Shown in pieces: positions 2,861 through 32,566 of a stretch of 32,711 nt of DNA. Each line of letters starts with the position of its first letter. The first letter of the stretch is position 1. Source of the DNA: Verrucomicrobiota bacterium (GTDB taxonomy: Bacteria; Verrucomicrobiota; Verrucomicrobiia; Limisphaerales; Fontisphaeraceae); the NCBI GenBank assembly GCA_037139415.1, contig JBAXGN010000082.1, positions 1 to 32,711 of the forward strand, given 5' to 3'. The translations under genes were made by a program, and so were the position numbers. The notes under the pieces were generated by a model. The model was not told the DNA's origin. It saw only the letters and a list, made by a program, of their open reading frames with translations, and ran no database searches.

Positions 2861-2932
2861 CACCAAAACCGAATGGCGAAAACCGAAATCCGAAAGAAAT
2901 CCGAATGCCGAATACCGAAAATCGCAGTGGAG
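2861..2932. repeat. CCGAA short-repeat array
   Basis: Irregular repeats of CCGAA(A/T) units occur between and into the start of the next gene, for example AAACCGAATGGCGAAAACCG and ATCCGAATGCCGAATACCG. The same kind of array occurs at 13809-13835 and, inverted, at 17124-17145. The proposed ATG at 2905 lies inside this array, which weakens that start. Confidence 0.6.
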
Positions 2933-3570
2933 ACGGAAGACAAGTGGTAGCTCTGCGTGGCAGTTTTGGATTGCGAGTATTATCGCTTCCTCCCGCCTCG
3001 TGCCGCCTCGGTCTATGGCTGGCAGTCTTTGCCTGGACGATGATGGCGGCGGCAGCGACCAAAGGAGATGCGCGGGTAACCATGACTTTTACCGTGACCA
3101 CCAACTATTATCTGGTTCAAGGCAATACCTTTCCGGAAATGATGAGCGCTGTGGAACAGGCGCGTCCCTGGAAGACCAATCATAACCAGTTCGATGGTTG
3201 GACGGAGTGGCGGATTAGTTGGAATTTTCACCACGCCGGCGCAAATGGGGAAGTACGGCTGACCGATGTCAAAGTGACTACCGTGGCCAAAATCACGGTG
3301 CCAAAACTTAAACCATCCACGGATGCCGATCCGGAAGCATTGCATCATTGGGGCACCTTCAGTGAAGGTTTATTACGACACGAGCTGGGCCATGTACGCA
3401 TTGCCCGGGAGGCCACGGATGCCGTTAAACATCAGTTTGAAAACACCGGACGTTATGCCACGCCCCGGGAATTATCCGCAGCCGTGGAAACCGCCAATGA
3501 CGGGATACTCAAGCAATTCAAACAAAAAGAAACCGATTACGATTGGAAGACGAATCACGGGCGGAACTGA
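2905..3570 (+). CDS. DUF922-type secreted Zn-dependent protease-like protein
   Basis: This protein of up to 221 residues has a hydrophobic export segment near residues 35-51 (LGLWLAVFAWTMMAAAA). The body resembles the DUF922 'secreted Zn-dependent protease' family. It has beta strands with YYLVQGNTFPEM, a WTEWRISWNF stretch near 99-108, and an HExxH motif (HELGH, residues 159-163) in LLRHELGHVRIARE. The two His and the Glu would bind zinc and catalyse (family knowledge; activity not shown). The ATG at 2905 lies in a repeat array. A GTG at 2944 preceded by GGAAGA gives a more usual signal peptide and may be the true start. The gene ends 11 bases before the convergent holin-like gene. Confidence 0.75.
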   Translation: MPNTENRSGDGRQVVALRGSFGLRVLSLPPASCRLGLWLAVFAWTMMAAAATKGDARVTMTFTVTTNYYLVQGNTFPEMMSAVEQARPWKTNHNQFDGWTEWRISWNFHHAGANGEVRLTDVKVTTVAKITVPKLKPSTDADPEALHHWGTFSEGLLRHELGHVRIAREATDAVKHQFENTGRYATPRELSAAVETANDGILKQFKQKETDYDWKTNHGRN

Positions 3571-11814: not shown

Positions 11815-12411
11815 ATGGACACGGCAACTTTCGATTTGAAAGCCTGCCTCGATCGGGTGCGGCGGCAGAATCAGGATGCTGCCGGTGCCTTGGTCGCGCA
11901 TTTGTTTCCCCTCGTGAAGCGCATCGTACATTCCCACCTGCCGGTCCGGCTGGACGAGGCGGATTTGACGCAAGAGGTGTTCATCAAGCTGTTTGCCCGA
12001 TTGGAGCAATACCAGGAACGCGACGGCATCCCCTTCGAACACTGGGTGGCCCGCCTGGCGGTGCGCACCTGCCTGGACAGCCTGCGTGCCGAGAAACGGC
12101 GGCCCGAATTGCGCTGGGCCGATCTCGAACCGGAGGAAACCGCATGGCTCGATTACCTGGTATCAGCCACCGAAGCGCCGCCCGACGCGTCCCCGGCATC
12201 CGCCCGGGAAATCCTGGAGAAATTACTGGCGCAGTTGCCGGTCAACGACCGCCTCGTCATCCATTGGATGGACCTCGAAGAAAAGACGGTCAAGGAAATC
12301 AGCCAGTTGACCGGGTGGAGTGGGACGCTGGTAAAAGTGCGGGTTTTTCGCGCGCGGCAACGTCTGAAGAAGCTGGCCGCGAGTTACAAGCAAAAGGCAA
12401 AATATGAATGA
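11815..12411 (+). CDS. RNA polymerase ECF-type sigma factor
   Basis: This 198-residue protein has sigma region 2 at about 25-100: LVAHLFPLVKRIVHSHLPVR, then DLTQEVFIKLFARLEQYQ and a WVARLAVRTCLDSLR helix. After an acidic linker comes region 4 at about 140-190: LLAQLPVNDRLVIHWMDLEE, then VKEISQLTGWSGTLVKVRVF as the helix-turn-helix. There is no region 1 or 3, as expected of ECF factors. GGAAG lies about ten bases before the ATG at 11815. The stop codon overlaps the start of the next gene by eight bases, so the three-gene cassette (11815-13104) is one operon. The shared motif upstream suggests it controls its own operon and the gene at 13201. Confidence 0.93.
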   Translation: MDTATFDLKACLDRVRRQNQDAAGALVAHLFPLVKRIVHSHLPVRLDEADLTQEVFIKLFARLEQYQERDGIPFEHWVARLAVRTCLDSLRAEKRRPELRWADLEPEETAWLDYLVSATEAPPDASPASAREILEKLLAQLPVNDRLVIHWMDLEEKTVKEISQLTGWSGTLVKVRVFRARQRLKKLAASYKQKAKYE

Positions 12412-13858: not shown

Positions 13859-13900
13859 ATGGCGGGTAAAAGATGTCCTATTTTTTACCTGCCATCTTTT
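13859..13900. terminator. Bidirectional hairpin terminator
   Basis: ATGGCGGGTAAAA (13859-13871) pairs with TTTTACCTGCCAT (13883-13895) with one G-T pair. It is followed by CTTTTTG on the plus strand. The hairpin lies between the convergent secreted-protein and AraC genes and contains the AraC stop codon, so it could end both transcripts. Confidence 0.6.
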
Positions 13901-14672
13901 TGCCAGTCCTGTCACTGCAACCTGATTCCATTGGCGCATGACGGCGGCGGTAATGCTGCGGGGCGATGCCCATGATGCGCTGAAAGAGCCGGGAAAAATG
14001 GCTGTGATCGTAAAACCCCGTCGCGAGGGCGATGTCGGTGCATTTCCGATCGGTACCGGTCAGCAACCGGCAGGCGGCGTTGACTCGTACACGCAATAGA
14101 TATTCGCGTGGTGACGTGCCGAACAGCCGGTGGAACACCCGTTCGAACTGGCTGCGGGATAGCCCGGCAATCGCGGCCAGCTTCGGGGTGGTCAGCGGCT
14201 CCGCAAAATCCTGGTGCATCCGTTGCACGGCTTTGGTCAGTGGCCCGAATTTCCGCGGCGGCGTTCGCAATCCCTCCACCTCCCGATGTATGCCCGCCAC
14301 GCCAATAATGCGCTGACGGTTATCCCGCACCGGTACTTTGCTGTAAATCACGAGGTGGTCCGGACCGACCTCCTCCGGGGCGAGCGTCAGGGCGTTGATA
14401 ATGGGCTCCCCGGTTTCCATCACCTTTCGGTCTTGCGCCACATACACGGCGGCCCGTTGCGGCGACCAGAAGTCATAATCTGTTTTGCCCAGCGTCTCGG
14501 CCTCGGAGCCCACCCGGCAATATTCGCACGCCCGCCGGTTCTGCATCACGAACCGGCCCTGCCGGTCCTTCATGAAAAACGCCACGTCCGGCAGCAGTTC
14601 CAGCAGTTGTTGAAACACCTGGGAACTGCCGATGCGCCGTAAAAAGTTCGTTTTAAAACGTTCGGGATTCAT
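13878..14672 (-). CDS. PAS domain-containing AraC family transcriptional regulator
   Basis: This 264-residue protein has an N-terminal PAS domain at about 18-135: LLPDVAFFMKDRQGRFVMQN, then LGKTDYDFWSP and RIIGVAGIHREVEGL. The C-terminal AraC-type double helix-turn-helix is at about 160-245: TTPKLAAIAGLSRSQFERVF, then GTSPREYLLRVRVNAACRLL and the signature GFYDHSHFSRLFQRIMGIAP. The ATG at 14672 is preferred; an earlier TTG would add twelve poorly supported residues. It is divergent from the oxidoreductase-isomerase pair across 89 bases, the usual position for a local regulator, so it probably senses a metabolite and controls those genes (inference). The last residues (KKMAGKK) come from a dispersed repeat. 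Confidence 0.92.
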   Translation of the reverse strand: MNPERFKTNFLRRIGSSQVFQQLLELLPDVAFFMKDRQGRFVMQNRRACEYCRVGSEAETLGKTDYDFWSPQRAAVYVAQDRKVMETGEPIINALTLAPEEVGPDHLVIYSKVPVRDNRQRIIGVAGIHREVEGLRTPPRKFGPLTKAVQRMHQDFAEPLTTPKLAAIAGLSRSQFERVFHRLFGTSPREYLLRVRVNAACRLLTGTDRKCTDIALATGFYDHSHFSRLFQRIMGIAPQHYRRRHAPMESGCSDRTGKKMAGKK

Positions 14673-14761
14673 GCGCGAAAAATACACCAAAACAGCACAC
14701 ACTTGCAAGCGGGAAACGCCGGTTTTGGGTAACCATACCGGGAAGTACAGACATTAAATTT

Positions 14762-17503: not shown

Positions 17504-20500
17504 ATGAAAATAACGCAAAACTCCATCCAAACCCAAGTTCAGAAGCGCGGTGGCGGGTTGTCTCTGTTGCTACTGGTCCTGCTCGCGCTGCCAGCGACGG
17601 CGGCCAACAAGGTCTGGAACGGCGGCGGCGCGGATGTCAACTGGGGCACTGCTGCCAACTGGGTGGGCGGCATTGCGCCAGTCACAGCGGCGGATAGTAT
17701 CACCTTCACCAACACCGCGCGCATCACTAATTTCAATAACTTGGTTAGCTACTCCAACCTTTGGTTGGAAATACGCGGCACCAACTTTTCCATTGGCGGC
17801 AACGCGTTCACGAACGCGGCCGGCATCACCAATAATAGTGGCGGCAATAACATCATCAGCAATTATATCACGCTGTCGGCATCGCAGACCTTTGCCAATA
17901 ACAGCAACGGCGCCACGCTGATCTTCTGGGGTGGCATCACCAATGGCGGCAGCAACCTGTTCCTGGCGGGCCCCGGCAATTTCACGTTCAACGCGGGCAT
18001 TGATGGCGCGGGTGGTTTGGTGAAAACGAATTCCGGTACGACCATTTTGGCGGCCACCAACACGTTCACGGGTGGCATCAGCAACGGTTTGGGCACGCTG
18101 CAAATCGGCGCGGGCGGTGCCACCGGCGATTTGGGCACCAATTACAGCACGGTGACCAACAACTCAACGTTGGTGTTCAATTTCGGCTACCAAATCACGA
18201 ACAGCTTTACCAACACCATCACCGGCACGGGCCCTATCTTTCTTTCCGGCAACAGCAACGTGGTGGTCTGGCTTTCCGGCACGAATACCTTCACGGGCTC
18301 CATTACCAACAATTCCGGCGGTCTCGGAGTGCGCAACAGCTCCTCCCTTGGGTGGGGAACGAAAACGGTTTCGCTTGCCAACGGGACCACCGGTTGGACG
18401 TTGATGCGCTTGGATGGCAGCGGTGGTGATATTACTTTGAGCAACAACATCAGTTTCATCACCAGTTGGGCGAACGGCACGGTCTATAATGATGCTGGGA
18501 ATAATACCATTGCCGGTAATTTTACCTTGGCCGGTGGCGGTGGGGATACTTATTTCATTGTTAGCAATGGCACTTTAAATCTGTCCGGGACTCTTTCCCC
18601 CAATACAACCTTACGATATTTGAAACTGGGTGGCCCGACAAATGGTACTGTCTCTGGGGTGATTGCCGATGGTGGTGGGGTTAATACACTGGCGGTCAAC
18701 AAAGTGGATGCTGGCACTTGGACCCTTGGCGGTACCAATACCTACACCGGCAACACGGTGATTGGAGCCGGGCGCTTGGTGCTGGCCACCAACGGTAGTA
18801 ATGGTAAAAGCGCCTATATCTTGGCCAACGGCGGGGTGTTTGATGTTTCGGCGGTCCCCGGCGGTTTTTGTCTGAGCAACAATCAGGCCCTGGGTGGCAA
18901 TGGTGGCGTGGTCACGGGCAGCGTGACTGCCTTGCCGGGTTCCTTTATTGTGCCAGGTAACGATGGCACGGCAGGTACTTATACGATCACTAACAGCCTC
19001 ACCATGAATAACGGCAGCGGCATGCGCTACGATCTCTCGACTACGGCGACGAATATGGGTGGTGGAGTGAATGATTTGTTGGTGGTGTCGAATCTGACCT
19101 TGTTGGGCAAGATTAATGTCAATTTTTCATTCATGGGCAAATCCACACCGCTGACCAATACCTATTATACGCTGATCGCCTATCGCGGTACGTTGATCGG
19201 CAATGCTGGGAATTTGACGGCTCCCGCTGGGTATGGTGCCACGTTTGATGATTCGGCTCCCGGCCTGATTCGCGTCAAGTTCAGTGCCGCCATCCAGCGC
19301 AGCTTGGTGTGGAAGGGTGATGGCGTGCAGAATACGTGGGACTTGGGGTTGACCACCAACTGGTTGAATGGCGGGTTGCCGGATGTGTTCTATGGTGGCG
19401 ATACGGTGTTGTTTGATAACTCCGGTTCCAATAATCCGGCGATTAATCTGGGGGCTTCACTGGCCCCAGCGGCGATCATTGTCAATTCTTCAAACAACTA
19501 TACCTTTGCCAGCAACGGAGTGATTGCCAGTGGCAGCTTGACCAAGTTGGGAGCGGGGACTCTTTATATGACCAATGTCGGTGCCAACCTCTACAACGGT
19601 GGTACGTTTGTGGGTGGTGGCACCCTGAAAGTGGGCGTGGCCAACTCCATGGGTGCCAATGCGTCAAGCGTGGTGGCGACCAACGGTGGTCAAGTGGATG
19701 TCAACGGCGTGGATCAATCCGCCAAGGGCTTCACGTACACAGTGAATGGTGTGGGGCCAGATGGGCAGGGCGCAATTAAGAGCACCGCTGGCAGTTTGGA
19801 CGGGGCCAAATCCGGCATAAAAAATGTCATTATGACTGGGGATACCGTATTCGGTGGCACAGCTCGGTTTGACCTTGCCAGCGGCGGTTATATGAATGGC
19901 AATGGCTACCGGATGATTAAGGTGGGCACCAGTACGGTTCCTTTCCGGGGCACGGTGAGCAACATTTCGGAAATTGTCGTCAGTAACGGCACGCTGTATG
20001 GGGAAGCCACCACGCAAATGCAAATGACCAATCTGGTTTCGGTGTATCCGGGCGGTACATTGGCTGCTTATGCGTACGATGGGATGGTGGGACTAACGAA
20101 CTCTACCCGTGTCAACCTCTATGGCGGTATTTTGGGTGGTGGCGGGGCTAGTGCCAACTCAGGTCATCAGGTTTGGATAGGGCCGATTTATGTCTATAAT
20201 GATTCAGCGATGAATGCCACCGCTCTGAGTGCTGGATCGGATACTCGTTTGGACGGCCCCATCAACGGCTCGGCCATGTTGAATGTGCGCGGTAATTCCA
20301 CCCGAGCTTTCATTTTGACCACCAATAATAATACCTATTCCGGCAACTGGACGATTGAAAGCACGGGTGTCCTGCGCCTGACCAATAGTGCCACACCTGG
20401 CACCGGTATCATCTATGACAACGGCTCGTTGGAACTCGCCAATACGAACGCTTATACGCTGTCGAATAATGTGATTGGCACCGGGGCCATGTCCATTCGG

Positions 20501-23500
20501 GCAACCAATGGCGTGACCTTTGATGGCACGGCCAGCGTGAACCTCACGGGGGTGTTGCAAGTTGGCGCGGTGACCAATTACGGCAAGGCCACGTTTAATT
20601 CTGGTGCGAACGTTTCGGTGGGGCAGTTTACGGTTGGTAATCCCACCTCCATTCCTGGGGATGTGATACACAATGGCGGGGCAGTGACGGTGAGTGGAAC
20701 CTTGGGTTTGCGCGTCGGTCACTGGCCGACGGAAATCTCCACGTACACGATGAATGGCGGGACGCTTTCCATCCCCAATGGTCCGCTTTCTGTGGGTTGG
20801 GATGGTGTCGGTTTGTTCAATTTGAACGGTGGTACGGTGGGTGTACTGCGCCTGTCGGTGGATGACAATGGTAACACCGGCGCGCTTGGCGGCACCAACG
20901 AAACCTTCACCCTGTCGGGTGGACGTATCAATCTCGGAGCGGGCGGCATCACCACGGCCTCGACGGATGGCGGCTACCGCATCGCACTGGGTGGCGGCAC
21001 CTTGGGGGCGTGGACCAACTGGTCCAGTTCCGCCGCTATCGTGCTGACTAACGCTCCGGGTACCGTGAGCATTGACCCGAGCGGTAACACCATCACTCTT
21101 TCCGGCTCGTTGTCCGGTCCGGGTGGGTTCTCCAAGGATGGCCCTGGCACGCTAACTGTTTCAGGTAACACCCTGTACCAAGGCAATGCCACGCTCAATA
21201 ACGGTGTGCTGTTGGTGAATGGCGTGTTGGGCACCAATAACTCTGGGGCCATCAATGTCACTGCCGGCACGCTGGCTGGCACCGGCGTGTTGCGCGCCCC
21301 GGTGACCATCAATGGCGGCACCCTCTCCGCTGGGGCGGTCCCTGGAGCGGGAACGCTGACGGTGTCCAATAGCGTGGTGTTTAACGGCGGTTCCATGCTG
21401 ATTGACCTGACCAACAATGCCACCGGGTTGAATGACTTGGTGGATATCAAGAACGACTTGACCTTGAATGCCAACGTGCCGGTCGCCTTCAACTTTCTGA
21501 CGAATGGTCCGGCCCTTGGTACTGCGTACACCATTGCCAAATTCGGTGGTGTTTTCAGCGGCTCCGGTTCCTTTGTGAACGCCTCGCATTACAGTGGCAC
21601 GATTTCCGTGGCGACTCCCAATGTGCAGATTACCTTTACTGGAGGCAATTCAAATCTCACCTGGCGCGGCGACGGCGCGGCGAATGTGTGGCAGGCGAAT
21701 ACCACCCCGTTGAATTGGTGGAATGGCGCGGCGCTTGATTTCTTTGGCGCGGGCGACGTGGTCACCTTTGATGGCTCCGGGTCCAACAATGTGCCGGTAA
21801 ACTTGGTGGGCGTGGTGACGCCCTCCAATATCACGGTCAATGCGGGCATTGATTATGTGCTGACTGGCAGTGGTCGGATCGCCGGTTCGGCGAGCTTGAA
21901 CAAGAGCGGCACGGGCATGTTGACCATCAGCAATGCGCACGAGTTCACGGGGAATACCATTATTTCGGGCGGCACGGTGAGCATTGGGTTGGACAGCAGC
22001 CTGGGCGTGATTCCGGCGGCGGCTACGCCGGGTAAGATTCAAATCAACGGTGGCACCTTGCAAGCCTACGACACCTTTATCCTGAATGCCAATCGCGGTA
22101 TCTATCTTGGGCCGTCTAGCGGTAGCGGCACGGGCACCATCAAGGTGCTGGGCACGAATATCGTCGCTTACAGCGGTATTATCACCAGTAACGGCACCAG
22201 TCTGGGCGGTTTGATCAAGACTGGCCCTGGTCAATTGACTTTGAGCGGCTACAATACTTATTTGAATGGCACCACCGTCAGCGAGGGAACGCTGGCTCTG
22301 GGTGTGGGCGGCGGGACCGGTACAATCCGCAATAACCTGATCGTGCAACCAGGCGCAACCGTGGTCTCGCTGGTCAACGACGCGATGGGGTACACCACTG
22401 GGCTGCAGGTGACCAACATAACCATTAATGGTGGTTCGGTGTTCCATGCCAGCACGCTTAACCTCACGCTGTCTGGTATCACCATCAACATGACGGGTGG
22501 TAACTTTTCGGCGACCAATGGCGGTGGTCGCCTTGATCTGCTCAACAACGGCACCCTGTACGCGGTGGTGAATACGTATGCCAGCAGCACGCCTTCAGTC
22601 ATCGGTGGCACCAACTTGTATCTGCGGCAGGCGACCAACCTCTTTACGGTGGCGGATGGCAGTCTTGGCAATGACTTGGTGGTCGCCGCTCCGATCAATG
22701 AGACTGCGGCAGGCATGGGTATCTATAAGGCTGGTCCGGGCGTGATGACCTTGCAATGCACCAATTTCTACTCCGGCCCTACATTCATCAATGCCGGCAA
22801 ACTGGCGCTTGGGAGCAATGCCTCCCTCTCCAACTCGCCCAATATCACCCTGGCCAGTGGCGCGACCTTCGATGTCTCGGCGGTGACCAATGGGTTTGTA
22901 TTGAATACCAACCAAACCTTGAATGCCTCGGGTACGGTCGTTGGGCGTTTGACGATTGCCAGCAATGCTACGGTGTCTCCTGGCGGCAGTTTGGTGGCCG
23001 GAACGCTGGTAGTTTCCTCGAACCTGACCTTGAACAATGGCAGCAAACTGTATTGGACGCTGACCAATGTGACCACCGTTGGTGTTGGGGTAAACGACCT
23101 GATCAATGTGCAGGGCGACTTGGTTATCGCCGGTTTTGTCACCAATACCATCAACCAACTTGCGGCGCAACTGGCCGCTGGCAGTTATCGCCTCATCAAC
23201 TACAGCGGCGCGCTGATCGGCGCTCCGGCGAACATGATCGTGGTGAATGGCAGTACCACGAATCGCTACAGTTATACGCTCGATTTCAGTGTCACCAACC
23301 AGGTCAACTTGGTTGTGGTCGGCACGCCTTCTGCTCTCACCTGGCGCGGCACTGGTACCAACAATGATTGGACCGCCGTGGCGCCTTGGCCGTTGGATTG
23401 GTTCAATGGAGCCAGCATGGATCGCTATTTCAATGGGGATACGGTATGGTTTGACGACTCCGCCTCCGCGACCTTTGTCAATCTGCCCGGCCAGATTTTC

Positions 23501-26500
23501 CCGGGGGCGGTTACCGTGAGCAATAGCGGCACCTATACCTTCTTTGGCGCGGGTAAAATCAGCGGGGTGACCGGTGTTACCAAGCAGGGGCTTGGTATGT
23601 TGGTGTTGAGCAATGCCGCGAGCGATTTCACCGGCCCGATTGTGGTACGGGCGGGCATCTTGCGCATTGGCGCCTCCAATGCCATGGGTTTTGCCTCCAG
23701 CATCACCGTCAATTCCAATGCCCAATTGGATTTCTTCGGCGTTCCTGGCTCTAATAACGTGACGCCATATAATTTCGTCATTGCCGGGCCTGGTCCTGGT
23801 GGTGATGGTGCCCTGAAGAATTGGAATTACAGCACCATGAACGTGGGTATCCGAAACCTGACCTTGTCTGATGACGCCACTCTCAACGTGATCAGCCGCA
23901 TTGATATTTGTTCGGCGGCGGGTACGCGCGGTGGTGTGGTTAATGGGAACGGCCACCGGTTGACCAAAATTGGCGGCGAGCAGATGCCAATCCACGGCAC
24001 CGTCACAAACCTCACCGAATTGATTATCAACAATGGCTTGGTGTATGGAGAAACGGCCCACTACAGCTTGGGCACCAATGTTACCGTGAATACACCCGGA
24101 CGCGTGGGCGCCTACGGCGCGCTTACCAATAACTGCGTCATCACTATGAACAGCGCGACTTTGGAGGCGACTGGTTCTGGGACGGCCACTTGGTTGGGGC
24201 CGCTTACCATGAACGGATCGTGCATCTTCAATACGCTCGGCCAGTCCGCTGGAACGACGCCACAGGATATCCGCTATCTGGGCGCGATTGGCGGCTCGGG
24301 TGGCATTTACAAAATTGCCCCGGCCATCACCAATGGTAACGCCCTGATTCTGGGCGGCACCAACACCTACACCGGCGATACTGTCATTGCGGGTGGTCGC
24401 ATCACGATGCTCGCCACCGCCTCCATCAGCAACAGTGCCGCAATTCGGCTTGGCACCAATGTGGTCGGTGGCACCAATGCCGTTTTTGATGTCTCGGCGT
24501 TCACCAGTGGTTACACGCTGACCAACCAGACCCTTGGCGGCTTCGGCATCGTCACCGGTTCTGTGTTCGTGGCGGATGGTGGTATTCTGTTGCCCGGTCG
24601 GGAAAATATTCCGGGAACCCTGATGTTCAGCAACAATCTCACGCTGTCCAATGCGGTGTTGAAGATTGACCTGACCAACTCGACGTTGGTGGGCAGTGGC
24701 ACCAACGACCTGCTCTTCGTGCAGGGCGGTCTCACGCTCCTTGGCAATACCGTGGTCCAACTGAATATCCTGGATACGAACTTGCCGGTGAACGGTGTGT
24801 TCACCATTCTCACCAACTTGGGGGCGCGCACCGGGTCGGGAACCATCAGCGTGGTGGCCAATTCGCGTTACACCTTCTCGCCCACCCTGAATGCCAATTC
24901 GATCACCGTTACGTACACGGGCAACTCAGCCCCGGCCAACCTGACCTGGTGGGGGGATGGCATCAATAACGTTTGGGATCTGAACACCACCCCGAATTGG
25001 ACGAATAATAATGGGACAGCCACCGATGTATTCAAACAACTGGACCCGGTGACCTTTGACGATACCGGTTCCCCGACTCCGGCGGTCACTCTGAGCGGTG
25101 CGTTGCGCCCGCAGTTCATTACGGTGAATGGCACGGCCAGTTACACGTTTGGTGGTACGGGCAGCTTGGACGGAGTGGGCAACCTGACTAACAACAGCAC
25201 CGGCATGCTGACGCTTCAGACCATCAATACGACGCTCGGTAAGGTCGTTGTCAACGCCGGCACGGTGTCAATCAGTGATGAACGGAATTTGGGTGGGAAC
25301 CCGAACAGCTATATTCCTGATCAACTGACGCTGAATGGCGGCACCTTGGCCGCCACCAGCCCCTTGGCGCTCAATAGCACGAATCGCGGCCTGTGGGTGG
25401 GCGCGAATGGCGGTGCGCTGGCACCGGCTGCCGGAACCACGCTTACCTTGTTGAATCCGATCGTGGGCACTGCGACCACCCCTGGTGCCGCACTGCATAA
25501 GCTTGGTGGCAGCAGTACCTTGATTCTTGCCGGCAATAATCTCCTGACCAACATCTTTGCGATTGACGCTGGTTACGTGCAGGTCGGCATGGGCTCGAAT
25601 AACGGAACCTTGGGGGCGGCCATCACCGTCACCAACAATGGGTGGCTGACCTTTAATCGCGGTTCATTTACCATCACCAATAACATTGTCGGTACCGGTA
25701 TGGTGGTCTTTGCGTATTCCAACTTGGTATCTCTGGGGGCGGGTGCTCCTGCTTACACCGTGCAGAATACGGGCCCGGCCAATACCTGGTCGGGTGGCAC
25801 CTTGATCACCAATTCGCGCGTTGCTGCCGCTACTGCGACCAGCATGGGCACCGGCCCGATCACGGTGACCACCAACGGACAGATTGAAGTGCGCACCGCG
25901 TTTACCAATGCGCTGCTCTTGAACGGCTATGGATGTTTGGGGGTGGCTCCGGATTATCGTTATGGCGCGCTTCGGCTCGCGGGCGGAACGGTTTATGGCC
26001 CCGTTACTCTTCAAGGGAATACGCGTATTTCGGCGTACATTAATAGTGCTGGCACCATCGCCAGCGCCATCACGGGGTCGTATGATATTGATTTTGGCGA
26101 TGATAATGGCGCGGGTGGCAGCATCACGCTGAGCGGTACTAATAGTTTCCCCAGCGCTACGCTGACCAGCGTCAGATTGGTCATGGGCAACAGCAACGCG
26201 TTACCCAATGCGGCGACCATTCGCATGTATGGCATCACGAACAGCGTGGGCGGCGCGATTGACCTGAATAATACCACGCAGACGGTGGCTCGGCTCCTCG
26301 GTGATCAACAGTATTCTCCCAACGCCTATATCAGCAACGGCACATTGCGGGTGACCACCAGTGCCAACGATACCTATAACGGGCGCATCCAACTTAATGG
26401 CACTCTCAGCATGGATGGTAGCGGCGCTCTCACTTTGGGTGGCAACACCGACAATGTGAGTGGCAAAGTCACCGTGAACAGCGGCACTGTGATCCTTGGC

Positions 26501-29500
26501 AAGGCGAGTTCCGGCACGATTCGCGCGATAGGTGGACTCCTCACGGTGAATGGCGGTCTCCTGCAACTGAGCGGTACCGGTGGGGACCAGATTTCCTCTG
26601 CGGCCGCCGCGCAAATGAACGGCGGTACGTTTGACTTCAATGGCCGCGACGAGGGCTGGGATGCCCTGAACGGCACGGCTGGAGTTCTCTTGAACAATGT
26701 GGCGGGTACCAACAACATGGTGACACTGGGGCAAAATAATGCCACCAGCACCTTTGGTGGTGTTATTCAGGACGGTGTGGGTACGCTCAGCCTCAGCAAG
26801 TCGGGTACGGGTACAATCACGCTTACCGGGACGAATACCTATTCCGGGGTGACGTTGGTGACCAATGGTAATCTGGCTGTCAACGGCAAGTTGGCGGGTA
26901 CCAATGCCGTGATTGTGGGTTCTTCCGGCGGTGGCCTGCTGGGTAACGGCACCGTCATGGGACCAGTCACCGTCATGAACAGTTCGGCCATTTCTCCGAA
27001 CGGCTCGGGCGCGGCGGGCACGCTGACCCTGGCCAGTTCGCTGACCCTGAGCAATAATTCCAAGCTCAACTGGAGTTTGACCAACAACACGGCGATTGGT
27101 GGCAACAATGATCTCTTGATAGTGGGCGGTGATGTGGTCATCGGTGGTGCGGTGACGTTGACGATCTACCCGTTGACCAGTCAACTGGCGGCAGGCACGT
27201 ATCGAATCATGAACTACAGTGGTAACCTGATCGGCAATGCCACGAACATTACGGTGGTGAATAGTGTGTCGGGTACGCATACTTATGCGATTGATGCCAG
27301 CACCCCCGGCCAGATCAATCTCGTGGTCAGTGCCGGCGTGTTGACCGGTAACCGCGTTTGGCGCGGTTATGTGAGTGCCAACTGGAATACGACCGAGTAC
27401 AACTGGTTTAATGGCGCATCCAACGACCTGTTTAACACCGCGTCGCCGGTGATCTTTGATGACTCGGGCTTGCTCACCACCATCGCGATTCCGGGTACGG
27501 TTCAGCCCGGTTCCGTCCTGGTGGATTCGTCCAAGAATTACACGCTGGGCGGTGGCAATGGCAAGATTACGGGGACGACCGGGATTACCAAGCAGGGTGC
27601 TGGCATCCTGACTTTGAGCACAACCAACGATTTCACGGGTCTGATCCAGGTGAATGCCGGAATTCTGAAAGGAAGTTGCACCAATGCATTTGGTGCCACG
27701 CCGATGATTACCGTGGCCAATGGCGCACAACTGGACCTCAATGGTATCACCTATAGTAAAAGTTATAATGTTACCATCCAAGGTTTCGGCCCGGATGGCC
27801 GTGGCGCGGTGCTCAATAGCGTCAATTTTCAAGGTGTCCATGGTGGTGGGGTGGCGCAGATCGCGAATGTCACACTGACTGGGGATGCCGGGGTTGGATC
27901 ACCTGTCGTTGCGGCGGTCTGGGACATCTATGGTGGTGTGATTGATGGCAAGGGCTACAAACTCACCAAGAAGGGGCCGGGCAGATTGGATTTCCAAGGT
28001 GGTTGCCGGGTGACTAATCTGAGTGAGTACATTGTGGCCGAAGGCATTGCCTATTCGGAAGGAACATCGTTGAAGGACAACTTCGGCAGTAATCTCGTCA
28101 TCATGGCGGGAGCCGTGGTCTCCCCGATGAATAATTACACGAATACTGGCAGTGTGGTGCTTAATGGTGGTACCTTGGCTGTGGGTGGTAATACCGATGC
28201 GGCCCGCTGGCGTGGACCGATCACCCTGAACACAAATTCGATCTTGGGCTATTATTTGATTTATAATAATCCGGCTACCTATTCCAACTTCCTGTATATC
28301 GAAGGCCCGATGAGTGGCCCGGCCGGCTTTACCAAGATCGGCACTACCAACACGACGTTCCTCACCAATGCCAATACCTATACGGGCGATACGATCATTG
28401 CGGAAGGGCGCCTGAATCTCGCGGCGTCCGGTTCGATCGCCAACAGTGCGAATATCATCGTCAGCAATCTGGCCTATTTGGAAGTGACGAACAACAACTT
28501 CGTCCTCTCCGCCAATCAAACGTTGGGTGGCGGCGGCACGGTCTTCGGCCAGGTGGCGGATTCCGCCGGCGCTTTCATCCAGCCCGGCGGTGCCAGTAAG
28601 ATTGGCACGCTGACCATTAACAGCAATTTGACGCTGAATGGTGGCGGCACCCTGTTGTTTGACTTGAGTAGCGTCAACACCACCGAAGGTGGCACCGACA
28701 ACGACCTGTTGAATGTCACCAATCTGGTCATCAACGGCCACACGGTGATCAAGCTCTCGCCGATCAGTGGCGCTTTCGTCAACGACTATTACACCTTGAT
28801 CAACTATGTCACCGCCACTTTCGATCAGGCTAATTTGACGGTTCAAGTGGATATGAGTGGCGCGTCCGCCACGTTGGATTACAGCGTGCCGAACAAGATT
28901 CGGGTGCTGGTGACCAGCGGAACGCCCGTGAGCCTCACGTGGATTGGTGACTACGATGGCAATGGCAGGACGAATTGGGATGTGAATGTCACGGATAGCT
29001 GGACGGATGGTTCCTCGCCATTGAAGTTCTTGTTGGCTGACTCGGTGTTGTTCGATGACAGCATGAGCAGCGGCACCACGGATGCGAACTTGGTGGGTTC
29101 GCTGGTGGCCGGATCAGTGACCGTATCCAGTGCGAATTACCTGTACCGGTTCCTGGGTAGCGGCAGCTTAACCACCCCCACATTTGGCAAGAGCCTTGCG
29201 AATACGCTGGTTTTGGCCAATAGCGGTCTGAACAGTTTTGGTGCGCTGCAAATTAGCGGCGGCACGATGATCTTGGCCAACTCGGGAATCAATGTGTGGC
29301 CGACCACCGATCTCCAACCTGGCACTACGCTCCAGGTGGGCAATGGCGGTTTTGCCGGGGCCTTGCCAGCCGCCACCACCATTGCGAATGCCGGAGCCCT
29401 CGTGTTCAATCGGGTGGATGATCTCACGGTGGCCAATGTGATTAGCGGGGCGGGTAGCCTTACCAAGCAAGGCGGCGGCGTTCTGTCTTTGGGTGGCATT

Positions 29501-32500
29501 AACCCGAATTACACGGGTGCGATCATCGTGGGCGCTGGAACACTGAAGCCTACTGCGTTTGCGGCGGTCAGCAACGCCAGTTCCATCGTGGTGCAATCCG
29601 GCGCTACCCTCGATGTGAACGGACTCAACTTCATGGATCGCCAGGTCACCATCGCCGGTGTGGGTTTGAATGGTTTGGGTGCCGTGGTTAATAGTGGAAC
29701 CTTGCAGAGTAACGCGTTGTGGCAGTTGACCCTGACGACCAATGCCACGCTGGGTGTTGCACTCAATAGCTGGGGCCTGCGTTCTCAATTGGGAACCAAT
29801 GCCACCGTTAAAAGTAGCGGACAGCCCTATAAACTGACCAAGGTCGGCGCTGGTATGCTTGGGCTTTGGGATGCGACAGTGGATCCGGCTTTGGGTGATA
29901 TTGATATCACCGCCGGTAGCATCCAGTTTGCCTATGGCACCAATCTGGCGGGTACGCTGGCCGGCAATCCCGCCAGCAACGTGTTCGTGCGCGCCAACGC
30001 CACGCTGGACCTCTATTTATTGAGCAACGTATTCAACAAGGTGGTGGTGCTGGACCTTGGTTCCACGTTGTACAATAACGTTGGTACCAACATTATTGGC
30101 GGCCCGGTGAAGGTGAACGGGAATGCCTTCGTCAATGTGGCTACCAATACCCTGGTCCTGACCAATGATGTGACTGGCGCTGGCACGTTGACCAAGAGCG
30201 GTGGTTACATTCTGCAAATCGGCAATACTAATACGGTGGGCACGCTGAACGTGCCAGTGAATATCGCCAGCGGCACGCTGCAATTTGCCCGCAGTGATGC
30301 CTATACCTATACCAACAATATCTATGGGGTTGGCACCGTGCAGCAACTGGCTGGCAGTGGTCCGCTGACGCTGGCTGGCGCCACAAACTTCATGGCCAGC
30401 CTGATCGGGCAAGCGGGACAGAATAACCCCATTATCCTCGCGTCCGGAACCACCAATTACTTCTCCGGCGGCGTGTACATTGGCCGAAACATTGCTAGCA
30501 GCTTGGTGATTCAGACGAACGCCAAGGTTTTGGCGCAGTACATCTCGATCGGCGATATTGGGAATGTGCCGGGCAATGTCACCCAACTGGGTGGCGATGT
30601 CATCGTGAATAACTCGCTGCGCGTGGCGCATTATCCCACCACCGGTTCCTATGTGATGGGCGGCGGCACGCTCTCCATGGTTGGAATCCCTTCGGCGGTG
30701 GTTAATCAGCCAATTGGTGCTGAGCAAAACGGGATTATCTACATTGGCGTGGATGGCACCGGCACCTTCATCCAAACGAACGGTGCGGTTTCCGCCCATG
30801 GCATTGTTCTGGACGCCCGGAATGATACGGCGGGAACCGATACGTACACCCTGGAAGGTGGTACGGTTATCTTGGGTCCGTCGGGCTTCAAGAGCGGCGG
30901 TTTGGATACCAACACCACATACCTGATTAACTTGGGTGGTGGCACGGTGAGTGCGTGGTCGAACTGGAACAGTTCGTTGAAGATGACGTTGACTGGTATC
31001 AACGGCAATACGATCTTCAATCCGTCCACGAATACCATCACCCTGAATGGCGTGCTTTCTGGCACAGCCGGTCTGGTCAAGCTGGGCGTTGGCACCCTGG
31101 CGCTGAATGCCACCAACACCTTTACAGGACTGGTGACGGTTTCTGAGGGTGGACTGACGGGGAATGGCGTGCTGGTGGCCCCGGTGACGGTGACCAGTGG
31201 CGGGGTGATGTCCATGTTATCTGGCTCGATCAATACCTTCACAATCAGCAATAACTTGACGCTGGCGGGTAATACCGTGCTGGAAATGCATCGCCAGTTT
31301 ACGCCGAACTGCGATCTGATCACCGGTATCTCCACCCTGACCTTGGGTGGCACGCTTACCTTGACGAACATGGGGCCGGCACCGCAACTCGGTGATACGT
31401 TCAAGCTGTTCAATGCGCAGATTACGCTGGGCGCGTTCAGCACGATCAACCTGCCGGCGTTACCGCTGGGCTCATACTGGGATACCTCGAAGCTGACGGT
31501 GGATGGCACGTTGACCGTGGTGGGACTGCCGGTGATCACGCAGAATCCGCAACCGGCGAGCCTGACGACAGGCGTGGGCTCGAATGCCACGTTCACGGTG
31601 ACGGCGACCGGTCTGCTGCCGCACTACCAATGGTACCTGAATAACACGGTGCCGGTGGGGGTGGACAATCCGGCCCTCGCCTTGACCAACCTGCAAATGA
31701 CCAACAACGGTCAGTACTCGGTAGTGGTGTATAATGGGGCGGGCTCGGTGACGAGCACGGTCCCGGCAACCTTGGTGGTCACGAACACCTCAAGCACACC
31801 GATCGGCTTGGTCATCACCCCTTCACCAACCAACACGGTGGATGTGGGTAACAAGGCGGAGTTCACCGCTACCGTGACCGGTGGCAGTGCGCCCATTGAC
31901 TTCTACTGGTACAAACTGCCGAACCTGACCGCGCCAGTAGGCATGGGTAACAACTACACCAGTGCCGTGGTGACGTGCCTGAGCGAAGGCGATGCCTATC
32001 AGGTGGTGGCGAGTAATCTGGTGGGGATGGCGACCAGTTTGGTGACCTACGTGGAAGTCCGGGATACCAACGCCCCGGCGTTCAATCCGGCGGTGGTGAC
32101 CACCAACGTGATGCTGCCGCAAGGAACCAACTTCAGTGTGGCAGTGGGCGTGGCGGCCAATTGCAACCTGGCAACCTACCGCTGGTACGTGAATGCGACG
32201 AACTTGTTGGCGAGCCAAACCACGCCAACGCTGAACCTGTCGAGCCTGAAGCTCAATGATGCGGGCACCTATACGTTGATCATGTCGAACAAGTACGGGC
32301 TGTCTCCGATTGGGACGGCGGCAGTGGTGACGGTAACATACTTGGTGGAGAACCCGATGGTGATAACGCTGGGGACCACGTTCCAGACCACGGTGACGGC
32401 GGAGCCGAACCGGGCGTACTGGTTGGAGGCACGGGACAGCCTGACGGAAGGAACCTGGCAGTTCATCATCGGAGTGACGAACGTTACGGGACCGCAGGTA

Positions 32501-32566
32501 TTGCAAGACGCGGCGGCGACCGCGGGCTTCAAGTTCTACCGGATCGGCAGTGCGTCGGCACCGTAA
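17504..32566 (+). CDS. Giant secreted autotransporter-associated beta-strand repeat protein
   Basis: This 5020-residue protein has a signal peptide (LSLLLLVLLALPATAA, about 20-35). Seven super-modules follow, each opening with a W-x-G/N-W...NG...D...FDDSG segment. They start near nt 17605, 19300, 21650, 23330, 24930, 27350 and 28925. Each closes with an NDLL...YTLINYSG segment. Between them lie at least 16 copies of the autotransporter-associated beta-strand repeat, typified by GTWTLGGTNTYTGNTVIGAG and GTITLTGTNTYSGVTLVTNG. The product is very rich in Asn, Thr, Gly and Ser. The C-terminus has three Ig-like domains (nt 31528-32340) and a short end domain finishing FKFYRIGSASAP. No autotransporter beta-barrel, LPxTG or PEP-CTERM anchor is visible. 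A long beta-solenoid adhesin or matrix protein is the likely form (inference). Confidence 0.92.
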   Translation: MKITQNSIQTQVQKRGGGLSLLLLVLLALPATAANKVWNGGGADVNWGTAANWVGGIAPVTAADSITFTNTARITNFNNLVSYSNLWLEIRGTNFSIGGNAFTNAAGITNNSGGNNIISNYITLSASQTFANNSNGATLIFWGGITNGGSNLFLAGPGNFTFNAGIDGAGGLVKTNSGTTILAATNTFTGGISNGLGTLQIGAGGATGDLGTNYSTVTNNSTLVFNFGYQITNSFTNTITGTGPIFLSGNSNVVVWLSGTNTFTGSITNNSGGLGVRNSSSLGWGTKTVSLANGTTGWTLMRLDGSGGDITLSNNISFITSWANGTVYNDAGNNTIAGNFTLAGGGGDTYFIVSNGTLNLSGTLSPNTTLRYLKLGGPTNGTVSGVIADGGGVNTLAVNKVDAGTWTLGGTNTYTGNTVIGAGRLVLATNGSNGKSAYILANGGVFDVSAVPGGFCLSNNQALGGNGGVVTGSVTALPGSFIVPGNDGTAGTYTITNSLTMNNGSGMRYDLSTTATNMGGGVNDLLVVSNLTLLGKINVNFSFMGKSTPLTNTYYTLIAYRGTLIGNAGNLTAPAGYGATFDDSAPGLIRVKFSAAIQRSLVWKGDGVQNTWDLGLTTNWLNGGLPDVFYGGDTVLFDNSGSNNPAINLGASLAPAAIIVNSSNNYTFASNGVIASGSLTKLGAGTLYMTNVGANLYNGGTFVGGGTLKVGVANSMGANASSVVATNGGQVDVNGVDQSAKGFTYTVNGVGPDGQGAIKSTAGSLDGAKSGIKNVIMTGDTVFGGTARFDLASGGYMNGNGYRMIKVGTSTVPFRGTVSNISEIVVSNGTLYGEATTQMQMTNLVSVYPGGTLAAYAYDGMVGLTNSTRVNLYGGILGGGGASANSGHQVWIGPIYVYNDSAMNATALSAGSDTRLDGPINGSAMLNVRGNSTRAFILTTNNNTYSGNWTIESTGVLRLTNSATPGTGIIYDNGSLELANTNAYTLSNNVIGTGAMSIRATNGVTFDGTASVNLTGVLQVGAVTNYGKATFNSGANVSVGQFTVGNPTSIPGDVIHNGGAVTVSGTLGLRVGHWPTEISTYTMNGGTLSIPNGPLSVGWDGVGLFNLNGGTVGVLRLSVDDNGNTGALGGTNETFTLSGGRINLGAGGITTASTDGGYRIALGGGTLGAWTNWSSSAAIVLTNAPGTVSIDPSGNTITLSGSLSGPGGFSKDGPGTLTVSGNTLYQGNATLNNGVLLVNGVLGTNNSGAINVTAGTLAGTGVLRAPVTINGGTLSAGAVPGAGTLTVSNSVVFNGGSMLIDLTNNATGLNDLVDIKNDLTLNANVPVAFNFLTNGPALGTAYTIAKFGGVFSGSGSFVNASHYSGTISVATPNVQITFTGGNSNLTWRGDGAANVWQANTTPLNWWNGAALDFFGAGDVVTFDGSGSNNVPVNLVGVVTPSNITVNAGIDYVLTGSGRIAGSASLNKSGTGMLTISNAHEFTGNTIISGGTVSIGLDSSLGVIPAAATPGKIQINGGTLQAYDTFILNANRGIYLGPSSGSGTGTIKVLGTNIVAYSGIITSNGTSLGGLIKTGPGQLTLSGYNTYLNGTTVSEGTLALGVGGGTGTIRNNLIVQPGATVVSLVNDAMGYTTGLQVTNITINGGSVFHASTLNLTLSGITINMTGGNFSATNGGGRLDLLNNGTLYAVVNTYASSTPSVIGGTNLYLRQATNLFTVADGSLGNDLVVAAPINETAAGMGIYKAGPGVMTLQCTNFYSGPTFINAGKLALGSNASLSNSPNITLASGATFDVSAVTNGFVLNTNQTLNASGTVVGRLTIASNATVSPGGSLVAGTLVVSSNLTLNNGSKLYWTLTNVTTVGVGVNDLINVQGDLVIAGFVTNTINQLAAQLAAGSYRLINYSGALIGAPANMIVVNGSTTNRYSYTLDFSVTNQVNLVVVGTPSALTWRGTGTNNDWTAVAPWPLDWFNGASMDRYFNGDTVWFDDSASATFVNLPGQIFPGAVTVSNSGTYTFFGAGKISGVTGVTKQGLGMLVLSNAASDFTGPIVVRAGILRIGASNAMGFASSITVNSNAQLDFFGVPGSNNVTPYNFVIAGPGPGGDGALKNWNYSTMNVGIRNLTLSDDATLNVISRIDICSAAGTRGGVVNGNGHRLTKIGGEQMPIHGTVTNLTELIINNGLVYGETAHYSLGTNVTVNTPGRVGAYGALTNNCVITMNSATLEATGSGTATWLGPLTMNGSCIFNTLGQSAGTTPQDIRYLGAIGGSGGIYKIAPAITNGNALILGGTNTYTGDTVIAGGRITMLATASISNSAAIRLGTNVVGGTNAVFDVSAFTSGYTLTNQTLGGFGIVTGSVFVADGGILLPGRENIPGTLMFSNNLTLSNAVLKIDLTNSTLVGSGTNDLLFVQGGLTLLGNTVVQLNILDTNLPVNGVFTILTNLGARTGSGTISVVANSRYTFSPTLNANSITVTYTGNSAPANLTWWGDGINNVWDLNTTPNWTNNNGTATDVFKQLDPVTFDDTGSPTPAVTLSGALRPQFITVNGTASYTFGGTGSLDGVGNLTNNSTGMLTLQTINTTLGKVVVNAGTVSISDERNLGGNPNSYIPDQLTLNGGTLAATSPLALNSTNRGLWVGANGGALAPAAGTTLTLLNPIVGTATTPGAALHKLGGSSTLILAGNNLLTNIFAIDAGYVQVGMGSNNGTLGAAITVTNNGWLTFNRGSFTITNNIVGTGMVVFAYSNLVSLGAGAPAYTVQNTGPANTWSGGTLITNSRVAAATATSMGTGPITVTTNGQIEVRTAFTNALLLNGYGCLGVAPDYRYGALRLAGGTVYGPVTLQGNTRISAYINSAGTIASAITGSYDIDFGDDNGAGGSITLSGTNSFPSATLTSVRLVMGNSNALPNAATIRMYGITNSVGGAIDLNNTTQTVARLLGDQQYSPNAYISNGTLRVTTSANDTYNGRIQLNGTLSMDGSGALTLGGNTDNVSGKVTVNSGTVILGKASSGTIRAIGGLLTVNGGLLQLSGTGGDQISSAAAAQMNGGTFDFNGRDEGWDALNGTAGVLLNNVAGTNNMVTLGQNNATSTFGGVIQDGVGTLSLSKSGTGTITLTGTNTYSGVTLVTNGNLAVNGKLAGTNAVIVGSSGGGLLGNGTVMGPVTVMNSSAISPNGSGAAGTLTLASSLTLSNNSKLNWSLTNNTAIGGNNDLLIVGGDVVIGGAVTLTIYPLTSQLAAGTYRIMNYSGNLIGNATNITVVNSVSGTHTYAIDASTPGQINLVVSAGVLTGNRVWRGYVSANWNTTEYNWFNGASNDLFNTASPVIFDDSGLLTTIAIPGTVQPGSVLVDSSKNYTLGGGNGKITGTTGITKQGAGILTLSTTNDFTGLIQVNAGILKGSCTNAFGATPMITVANGAQLDLNGITYSKSYNVTIQGFGPDGRGAVLNSVNFQGVHGGGVAQIANVTLTGDAGVGSPVVAAVWDIYGGVIDGKGYKLTKKGPGRLDFQGGCRVTNLSEYIVAEGIAYSEGTSLKDNFGSNLVIMAGAVVSPMNNYTNTGSVVLNGGTLAVGGNTDAARWRGPITLNTNSILGYYLIYNNPATYSNFLYIEGPMSGPAGFTKIGTTNTTFLTNANTYTGDTIIAEGRLNLAASGSIANSANIIVSNLAYLEVTNNNFVLSANQTLGGGGTVFGQVADSAGAFIQPGGASKIGTLTINSNLTLNGGGTLLFDLSSVNTTEGGTDNDLLNVTNLVINGHTVIKLSPISGAFVNDYYTLINYVTATFDQANLTVQVDMSGASATLDYSVPNKIRVLVTSGTPVSLTWIGDYDGNGRTNWDVNVTDSWTDGSSPLKFLLADSVLFDDSMSSGTTDANLVGSLVAGSVTVSSANYLYRFLGSGSLTTPTFGKSLANTLVLANSGLNSFGALQISGGTMILANSGINVWPTTDLQPGTTLQVGNGGFAGALPAATTIANAGALVFNRVDDLTVANVISGAGSLTKQGGGVLSLGGINPNYTGAIIVGAGTLKPTAFAAVSNASSIVVQSGATLDVNGLNFMDRQVTIAGVGLNGLGAVVNSGTLQSNALWQLTLTTNATLGVALNSWGLRSQLGTNATVKSSGQPYKLTKVGAGMLGLWDATVDPALGDIDITAGSIQFAYGTNLAGTLAGNPASNVFVRANATLDLYLLSNVFNKVVVLDLGSTLYNNVGTNIIGGPVKVNGNAFVNVATNTLVLTNDVTGAGTLTKSGGYILQIGNTNTVGTLNVPVNIASGTLQFARSDAYTYTNNIYGVGTVQQLAGSGPLTLAGATNFMASLIGQAGQNNPIILASGTTNYFSGGVYIGRNIASSLVIQTNAKVLAQYISIGDIGNVPGNVTQLGGDVIVNNSLRVAHYPTTGSYVMGGGTLSMVGIPSAVVNQPIGAEQNGIIYIGVDGTGTFIQTNGAVSAHGIVLDARNDTAGTDTYTLEGGTVILGPSGFKSGGLDTNTTYLINLGGGTVSAWSNWNSSLKMTLTGINGNTIFNPSTNTITLNGVLSGTAGLVKLGVGTLALNATNTFTGLVTVSEGGLTGNGVLVAPVTVTSGGVMSMLSGSINTFTISNNLTLAGNTVLEMHRQFTPNCDLITGISTLTLGGTLTLTNMGPAPQLGDTFKLFNAQITLGAFSTINLPALPLGSYWDTSKLTVDGTLTVVGLPVITQNPQPASLTTGVGSNATFTVTATGLLPHYQWYLNNTVPVGVDNPALALTNLQMTNNGQYSVVVYNGAGSVTSTVPATLVVTNTSSTPIGLVITPSPTNTVDVGNKAEFTATVTGGSAPIDFYWYKLPNLTAPVGMGNNYTSAVVTCLSEGDAYQVVASNLVGMATSLVTYVEVRDTNAPAFNPAVVTTNVMLPQGTNFSVAVGVAANCNLATYRWYVNATNLLASQTTPTLNLSSLKLNDAGTYTLIMSNKYGLSPIGTAAVVTVTYLVENPMVITLGTTFQTTVTAEPNRAYWLEARDSLTEGTWQFIIGVTNVTGPQVLQDAAATAGFKFYRIGSASAP
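31528..32340 (+). other. Three C-terminal Ig-like domains of the giant protein
   Basis: Domain 1 (31528-31785) starts PVITQNPQPASLTTGVGSNA and has YQWYLNN and the NNGQYSVVVYNGAGSVTS end strand. Domain 2 (about 31800-32062) has FYWYKLPN and DAYQVVASNLVG. Domain 3 (about 32080-32337) has YRWYVNATN and DAGTYTLIMSNKYG. The Trp and (D/N)xGxY pattern is typical of I-set-like folds. Confidence 0.8.

Follow-up and report, generated by a model that had tools for sequence, protein, structure and literature searches.

How a bacterial protein of 5020 residues is put together, and which of its parts should be regarded as the unit from which it was built, is the question raised by the reading frame at positions 17504-32566 of the plus strand (stop codon included) in the stretch of 32,711 nucleotides analysed here, referred to as the window. 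The frame starts from ATG and was confirmed in the window. A preliminary description had proposed seven super-modules, each beginning with an opener segment and ending with a closer segment, and profiles iterated on relatives bore this out. The protein contained seven copies of an opener with the pattern W.G...W...NW...FDD and seven copies of a closer with the pattern GTL...DL...NDLL.V...YTLI.Y.G, and it read OCOCOCOCOCOCOC, a strict alternation of openers (O) and closers (C). The closer profile had 110 positions, while the opener profile was confined to the first 76 alignment columns, since a longer version reached a stretch resembling the short β-strand repeat PATR and produced false openers; all architecture counts given below rest on the 76-column profile. 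The motifs themselves had been described too literally. The segment given as Trp-Gly/Asn-Trp had 0 matches as W[GN]W, its real form being W.G followed by W and NW, and YTLINYSG was found exactly in no closer, where variants such as RLINYSG and YTLINYV stood. FDDSG occurred only once as an exact string; NDLL fared better, with four exact copies and the D-L core kept in the other closers.

Opener 1 started at residue 35, directly behind a probable Sec signal peptide of residues 1-34 (17504-17605, plus strand), which was read by eye from the translation, and the following openers started at residues 600, 1384, 1944, 2478, 3284 and 3810. Each closer, of about 110 residues, ended shortly ahead of the next opener, which followed after about 10 residues, and the last closer ended at about residue 4675. 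The modules, all on the plus strand, measured 565 residues for module 1 (17606-19300), 784 for module 2 (19301-21652), 560 for module 3 (21653-23332), 534 for module 4 (23333-24934), 806 for module 5 (24935-27352), 526 for module 6 (27353-28930) and 866 for module 7 (28931-31528). Modules 2 (2.35 kb) and 5 (2.42 kb) had been recognized as long from the start, but the third long one, module 7 (2.6 kb), had been missed. The closers, on the same strand, lay at 18947-19276 (closer 1, profile E 5e-25), 21320-21634 (closer 2, 2e-19), 22970-23314 (closer 3, 6e-27), 24587-24913 and 26990-27325 (closers 4 and 5, both profile matches), 28577-28906 (closer 6, 7e-26) and 31220-31522 (closer 7, 9e-17). Within the protein, the highest identity between any two openers was 50% and between any two closers 49%, and opener 1 and closer 7 were among the most divergent elements. 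Neither element had a model in Pfam or NCBIfam, the sole exception being PATR, which four opener segments matched at their far end, and searches of both against solved structures by sequence gave insignificant matches only. Behind module 7, an Ig-like region (31529-32323, plus strand; Pfam Ig_3 E 1.9e-15, I-set E 7.1e-09), with Ig_3 recorded in three stretches of the second half of the protein, was followed by a C-terminal tail (32324-32563, plus strand) ending in ...FKFYRIGSASAP; neither of them is a module. Upstream of the gene, a Sigma-70-family factor with region 2 and region 4 domains (11815-12408, plus strand) and a PAS/AraC-type regulator (13878-14708, minus strand) were observed among genes for oxidoreductases, a GDSL lipase and TIM-barrel proteins.

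Module-scale periodicity was seen in a self dot-plot of the protein (BLOSUM62, 40-residue windows), in which many off-diagonal runs scored between 72 and 127, whereas three shuffled versions of the protein peaked at 55-64. The preliminary description had named a dot-plot with no periodicity beyond the short repeat as the outcome that would overturn its claim; the plot showed such periodicity, and the claim held. That the short β-strand repeat is known was also correct, PF12951 matching at 122.1 and 47.4 bits (cut-off 27) and TIGR02601 at 86.7 and 49.6 bits (cut-off 19.85). Pfam placed PATR in 10 and 6 stretches of the two halves of the protein, which would agree with the view that the periodicity is a by-product of this repeat. 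However, our own profile found only 14 copies of the 30-residue repeat, which did not form a tandem array and which in most modules occupied fixed slots, one 76-88 residues past the module start and the other about 150-205 residues ahead of the module end. The exceptions were module 1, with its first copy at 222, module 7, with its first at 175, and module 2, in which only the first was found. The closers gave no PATR match. In 109 modules from the whole set, the first PATR started a median of 15 residues behind the opener and the last ended a median of 37 residues ahead of the closer. These positions contradict the by-product view, which we consider very improbable. In addition, a PATR frame of at least 17,232 residues, cut by a contig end in a 2.3-Mb genome (L149-L151; G102:C2, minus strand), contained a single clear opener, so it is not built of opener-closer modules, and PATR arrays do not by themselves force the module layout.

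The cores between openers and closers fell into types. Modules 2, 4, 6 and 7 shared one type, modules 3 and 5 another, and module 1 was nearest to modules 3 and 4; the longest core similarity was between modules 2 and 7. The two types alternated along much of the chain. The segment C3-O4-core-C4-O5 aligned with C5-O6-core-C6-O7 at 38% over 773 columns, a likeness that suggests an old duplication of two modules. A frame of 5074 residues from another family of the same order contained seven closers at nearly identical spacings and gave one colinear alignment with the window protein, 46% over 4485 columns. Modules 2, 3, 5, 6 and 7 paired one to one with those of the relative at 675, 502, 647, 394 and 580 bits, with off-diagonal scores of at most 169 in their rows, and were 50%, 52%, 50%, 48% and 43% identical to their partners, respectively. 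Module 1 also matched its own partner best, but weakly, with 123 bits and 27-33% identity in the first 400 residues, and opener 1 was not detected in the relative by the profile. Module 4 scored 157 bits to its own partner and 250 bits to module 6 of the relative. When it was compared piece by piece, its core resembled module 6 of the relative, but the closest counterpart of its closer, among the modules compared, was closer 4 of the relative; the core was apparently swapped between retained caps. The presence of the same seven-closer array in another family of the order indicates that the array is old. The source genome is a draft of 378 contigs, in which seven similar copies might reflect an assembly artefact or a recent tandem amplification. 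Both of these are contradicted by the divergence of the modules, which are only about 28-53% identical in local alignments, and by the colinear array in the genome of the other family, and we regard them as extremely unlikely.

The elements were not confined to this gene. Matches of the opener profile lay at 41 places of the source genome and those of the closer profile at 30, and opener matches were found in 78 of 288 genomes drawn from the phylum. A profile of the closer-opener junction matched in 127 of the 288, a count that includes partial matches to its opener half, which holds a PATR-like piece. Eighty regions were examined, 60 of them chosen by strong opener matches (in the source genome, by opener and closer matches) and the other 20 because they matched module 4 and the closers; since regions were picked for strong matches, multi-module proteins are over-represented in the counts of modules per protein, and the profiles were partly trained on the first 60 regions. 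At least one element was present in 90 frames, with 165 openers and 157 closers altogether. Alternation was perfect in 53 of the 58 proteins with three or more elements, and neighbours of the same letter occurred 7 times in 217, where 86.5 were expected and the minimum in 5,000 shuffles was 63. The gap from closer to opener had a median of 11 residues and was no longer than 30 in 95 of 97 cases, and the gap from opener to closer ranged from 77 to 1727 residues. Module numbers varied among proteins of the phylum, as had been supposed, from 0 to 7 closers in the 78 frames whose C-terminal end was intact, a count from which C-terminally cut frames were dropped and in which N-terminally cut ones were included. 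A protein of 6459 residues from another genome of the phylum (L152-L153; G101:C4) consisted of strictly seven opener-closer modules with a closer at the very C-terminus and resembled the window protein only locally and weakly, and three frames of 1322, 1290 and 1463 residues with closers and openers formed a small cluster of modular genes at another locus (L133). No description of the opener-closer unit was found in the open-access literature, as judged from titles and abstract openings.

Structure prediction connected the module with a known fold. An AlphaFold2 model of residues 1813-2572, running from closer 3 to opener 5 and built with 34 alignment rows, had a pLDDT of 90.4 and a pTM of 0.83. 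The best Foldseek matches of this module-4 model were pertactin (E 9.4e-5) and antigen 43 (E 3.4e-4), and in VIA-align 2 several passengers covered model residues 131-662, which correspond to residues 1943-2474 of the protein, from opener 4 to closer 4. The autochaperone region of IcsA (3ml3) was superposed on model residues 522-662, that is, on closer 4, with Z 10.5 and 2.5 Å (134 of 156 residues aligned). A second model, of the junction of closer 5 and opener 6 (91 alignment rows, pLDDT 92.9), gave nothing better than E 0.012 in Foldseek alone, but its closer part (model residues 1-141) matched 3ml3 with Z 14.0 and 2.5 Å (132 of 156 aligned). It also matched residues 503-640 of Ssp (Z 12.9), residues 853-989 of IgA1 protease (Z 12.7), IcsA 5ke1 (Z 10.8) and residues 937-1074 of Hbp (Z 8.7), and in the rows next after the autochaperone matches Z fell to 6.9 and 5.3. 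The matches of this model covered the closer part only, and the opener was placed in the first coils. Highest of all for the closer model was the match to residues 279-434 of PDB 7jvi, a solved β-helix domain from a capybara gut metagenome (Z 14.3, 2.2 Å, 131 aligned). For closers 4 and 5, the predicted fold was of autochaperone type and lay at the C-terminal end of the β-helix, and the other five closers are tied to it through their sequence similarity to these two. The ranges given for the autochaperones of IcsA, IgA1 and Hbp in the available part of PMC5767081 fall inside the ranges matched by the closer, and the same part gives a size of about 110 residues and a site about 100 residues upstream of the translocator. 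In Ssp, the PATR at 464-496 precedes the matched autochaperone-like part, according to the accessible portion of PMC9977779. On the module-4 model and the fold of closer 5, the protein appears to consist of seven β-helices of the passenger type, each with an autochaperone-like cap.

Whether the module is also the unit of inheritance was examined with 84 openers, each standing between two closers, and with a thinned set of 73. The distance between openers followed that of the preceding closer across the junction (Spearman 0.55 within proteins and 0.28 between; thinned, 0.56 and 0.25) more closely than that of the closer of the same module (0.29 and 0.12; thinned, 0.31 and 0.09), and an earlier run on all elements had the same direction. 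Between proteins, the junction value was reached by 26 and 22 of 500 within-protein shuffles, whereas the value for the own closer was reached by 258 and 332 of 500 and was no better than shuffled. Among the 32 internal duplications listed from a BLAST of masked protein pieces and counted by hand, 22 contained the whole junction in both copies, 1 a closer only, 2 an opener only and 7 neither. The strongest one listed (L060, 60% over 606 columns) was offset by one module of 607 residues and had both breakpoints inside openers. The period of the duplications is therefore often the module, while their phase favors the junction. These results, together with the apparent exchange of the module-4 core with its closer retained, argue for a reading in which the junction of about 190 residues is the real inherited and exchanged block between cores, and the module follows from reading between such joints. 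Against it, modules 2, 3, 5, 6 and 7 paired as wholes with those of the relative, the own closer co-varied with the opener within proteins above the shuffled level (reached by 2 of 500 shuffles in the full set and by 17 of 500 after thinning), and adjacency by itself raises co-inheritance; we give the junction reading a substantial chance, somewhat short of even. The proposal that the module is the true evolutionary building block stands in so far as periodicity, alternation in other proteins, variable module numbers and a fold unit from opener to closer were found. It is not fully supported in that the opener tracks the preceding closer better than its own, the duplications mostly span the junction and the module-4 core was apparently exchanged. 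The array is also old: it is fixed in two families of the order and is not expanding freely.

The endings of these proteins bear on export and on the role of the closers. The barrel PF03797 was absent from the protein and its genome by a search that was positive in E. coli and Caulobacter, and the classical export route is consequently missing from this genome. No outer-membrane partner was found by Pfam among the neighbouring genes of the window, nor was a TPS/haemagglutination N-terminal domain found by Pfam in either half of the protein, and SprA_N, taken as the test for T9SS, gave no match in the genome or in the controls. ShlB-type transporters of two-partner secretion were present in the same genome (G000:C275:3172-3993, C54:12956-13945 and C48:29491-29703). 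The tail of the window protein ends in FYRIGSASAP, and PF07589 was not listed for it. Tails of the W...(F/Y)(Y/F)R type, a loose pattern, were found in 47 of the 78 intact-end frames, and a tail profile that included the tail of the window protein matched 18 places in the genome, many of them ending frames of 1,200-5,000 residues. The tail of about 80 residues at 32324-32563 was 89% identical to that at 12131-12370 of L027, and similar tails were seen in L030, L033 and L039, with diverged modules; such near-identical tails of paralogues might be a sorting signal or the result of gene conversion. In one protein of the set (L063), the last of three closers started at residue 2686 and was followed in the same frame by a PF03797 barrel at about 2910-3167 (E 4.5e-41), a spacing near the autochaperone distance in the available part of PMC5767081.

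PEP-CTERM-like tails were found in 12 of the 78 intact-end frames and were confirmed by Pfam (PF07589) in L051. In 11 of these 12 proteins the last closer ended 24-66 residues before the C-terminus, and the rod would be capped with no barrel behind it, as expected if the closers are passive C-terminal caps against end-to-end aggregation, with the autochaperone fold but no nucleation of folding. Likeness in fold is, moreover, no proof of chaperone activity. The sequence tools likewise linked the closers to no autochaperone: there was no match to the Pfam autochaperone models at E up to 10, nor to four autotransporters of E. coli K-12 by HMMER or hhalign. The fold match, on the other hand, was specific to autochaperone regions, came from several separate autotransporters and was clear of other β-helices, and we hold passive capping to be a credible minority view, at about one chance in three.

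We favor the reading, to which we assign a probability of about 0.6, that the protein is an exported surface or extracellular fibre of seven β-helix domains, each with an opener and a closer of autochaperone fold. It builds on the alternation of the elements, on the relative with the colinear array, and on fold predictions for a single module and a single junction. The signal peptide would take the chain across the inner membrane, and the chain would then pass the outer membrane. The Trp-rich opener would form the first coils of each β-helix and the closer would end the rod, while PATR would mark two coils, one directly after the opener and one a little ahead of the closer. Folding may proceed rod by rod, each closer supplying the first stable rungs and nucleating folding by analogy with autochaperones, which have been proposed to provide the first stable rungs in the available part of PMC5767081. 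Since every rod has its own closing cap, we infer that each can fold as a unit, which would permit very long proteins to be made from rods of limited length and not from one endless helix. With about 22 residues and a rise of 0.48 nm for each coil of a β-helix, the seven rods would extend roughly 100 nm end to end. Outside the cell, such a protein might serve as an adhesin or a stalk.

Type Va passengers with a type-1 autochaperone (IcsA, pertactin, Hbp, IgA1 protease) and the Ssp stalk share with the window protein the predicted β-helix and a C-terminal fold of autochaperone type, and in the accessible portion of the report on Ssp, PATR lies ahead of the autochaperone-like part, the same order as here. 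The β-helical passenger characteristic of type Va autotransporters was predicted for module 4 only, and their PF03797 barrel is absent from the window protein and its genome. The window protein has seven caps per chain, whereas PMC5767081, in its available part, puts autochaperones essentially near the translocator; additional ones far from it are mentioned there for some autotransporters, with no repeating opener-closer unit in that part of the text. Compared with PATR proteins (PF12951, TIGR02601), whose two models the window protein matches, the 30-residue repeat covers little of the chain here and sits in fixed slots inside a larger unit for which there was no model. Giant1-5, surface proteins of the lactic acid bacterium Apilactobacillus kunkeei (PMC12863079), are also very large extracellular proteins (3,000-8,000 residues).

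The architecture is real and widespread and combines a known fold with a known short repeat; serial autochaperone-like caps are its surprising feature. We consider it possible, at somewhat less than even odds, that a large part of the phylum makes giant extracellular proteins of concatenated passengers, in which the autochaperone of each rod acts as a stepwise folding ratchet and the passenger is freed from the type Va barrel, so that rods can be joined to FYR-type, PEP-CTERM or β-barrel endings. For proteins annotated only by the β-strand repeat, the results supply a domain architecture and two searchable elements that are missing from Pfam and NCBIfam. If the closers act as autochaperones, these would be natural proteins with several of them per chain, and they would offer a direct test of the need for a single nucleation site per passenger and of how very long β-helical proteins fold outside the cell. 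Rods shared by β-barrel, PEP-CTERM and other tails would separate the evolution of the passenger from that of the secretion route.
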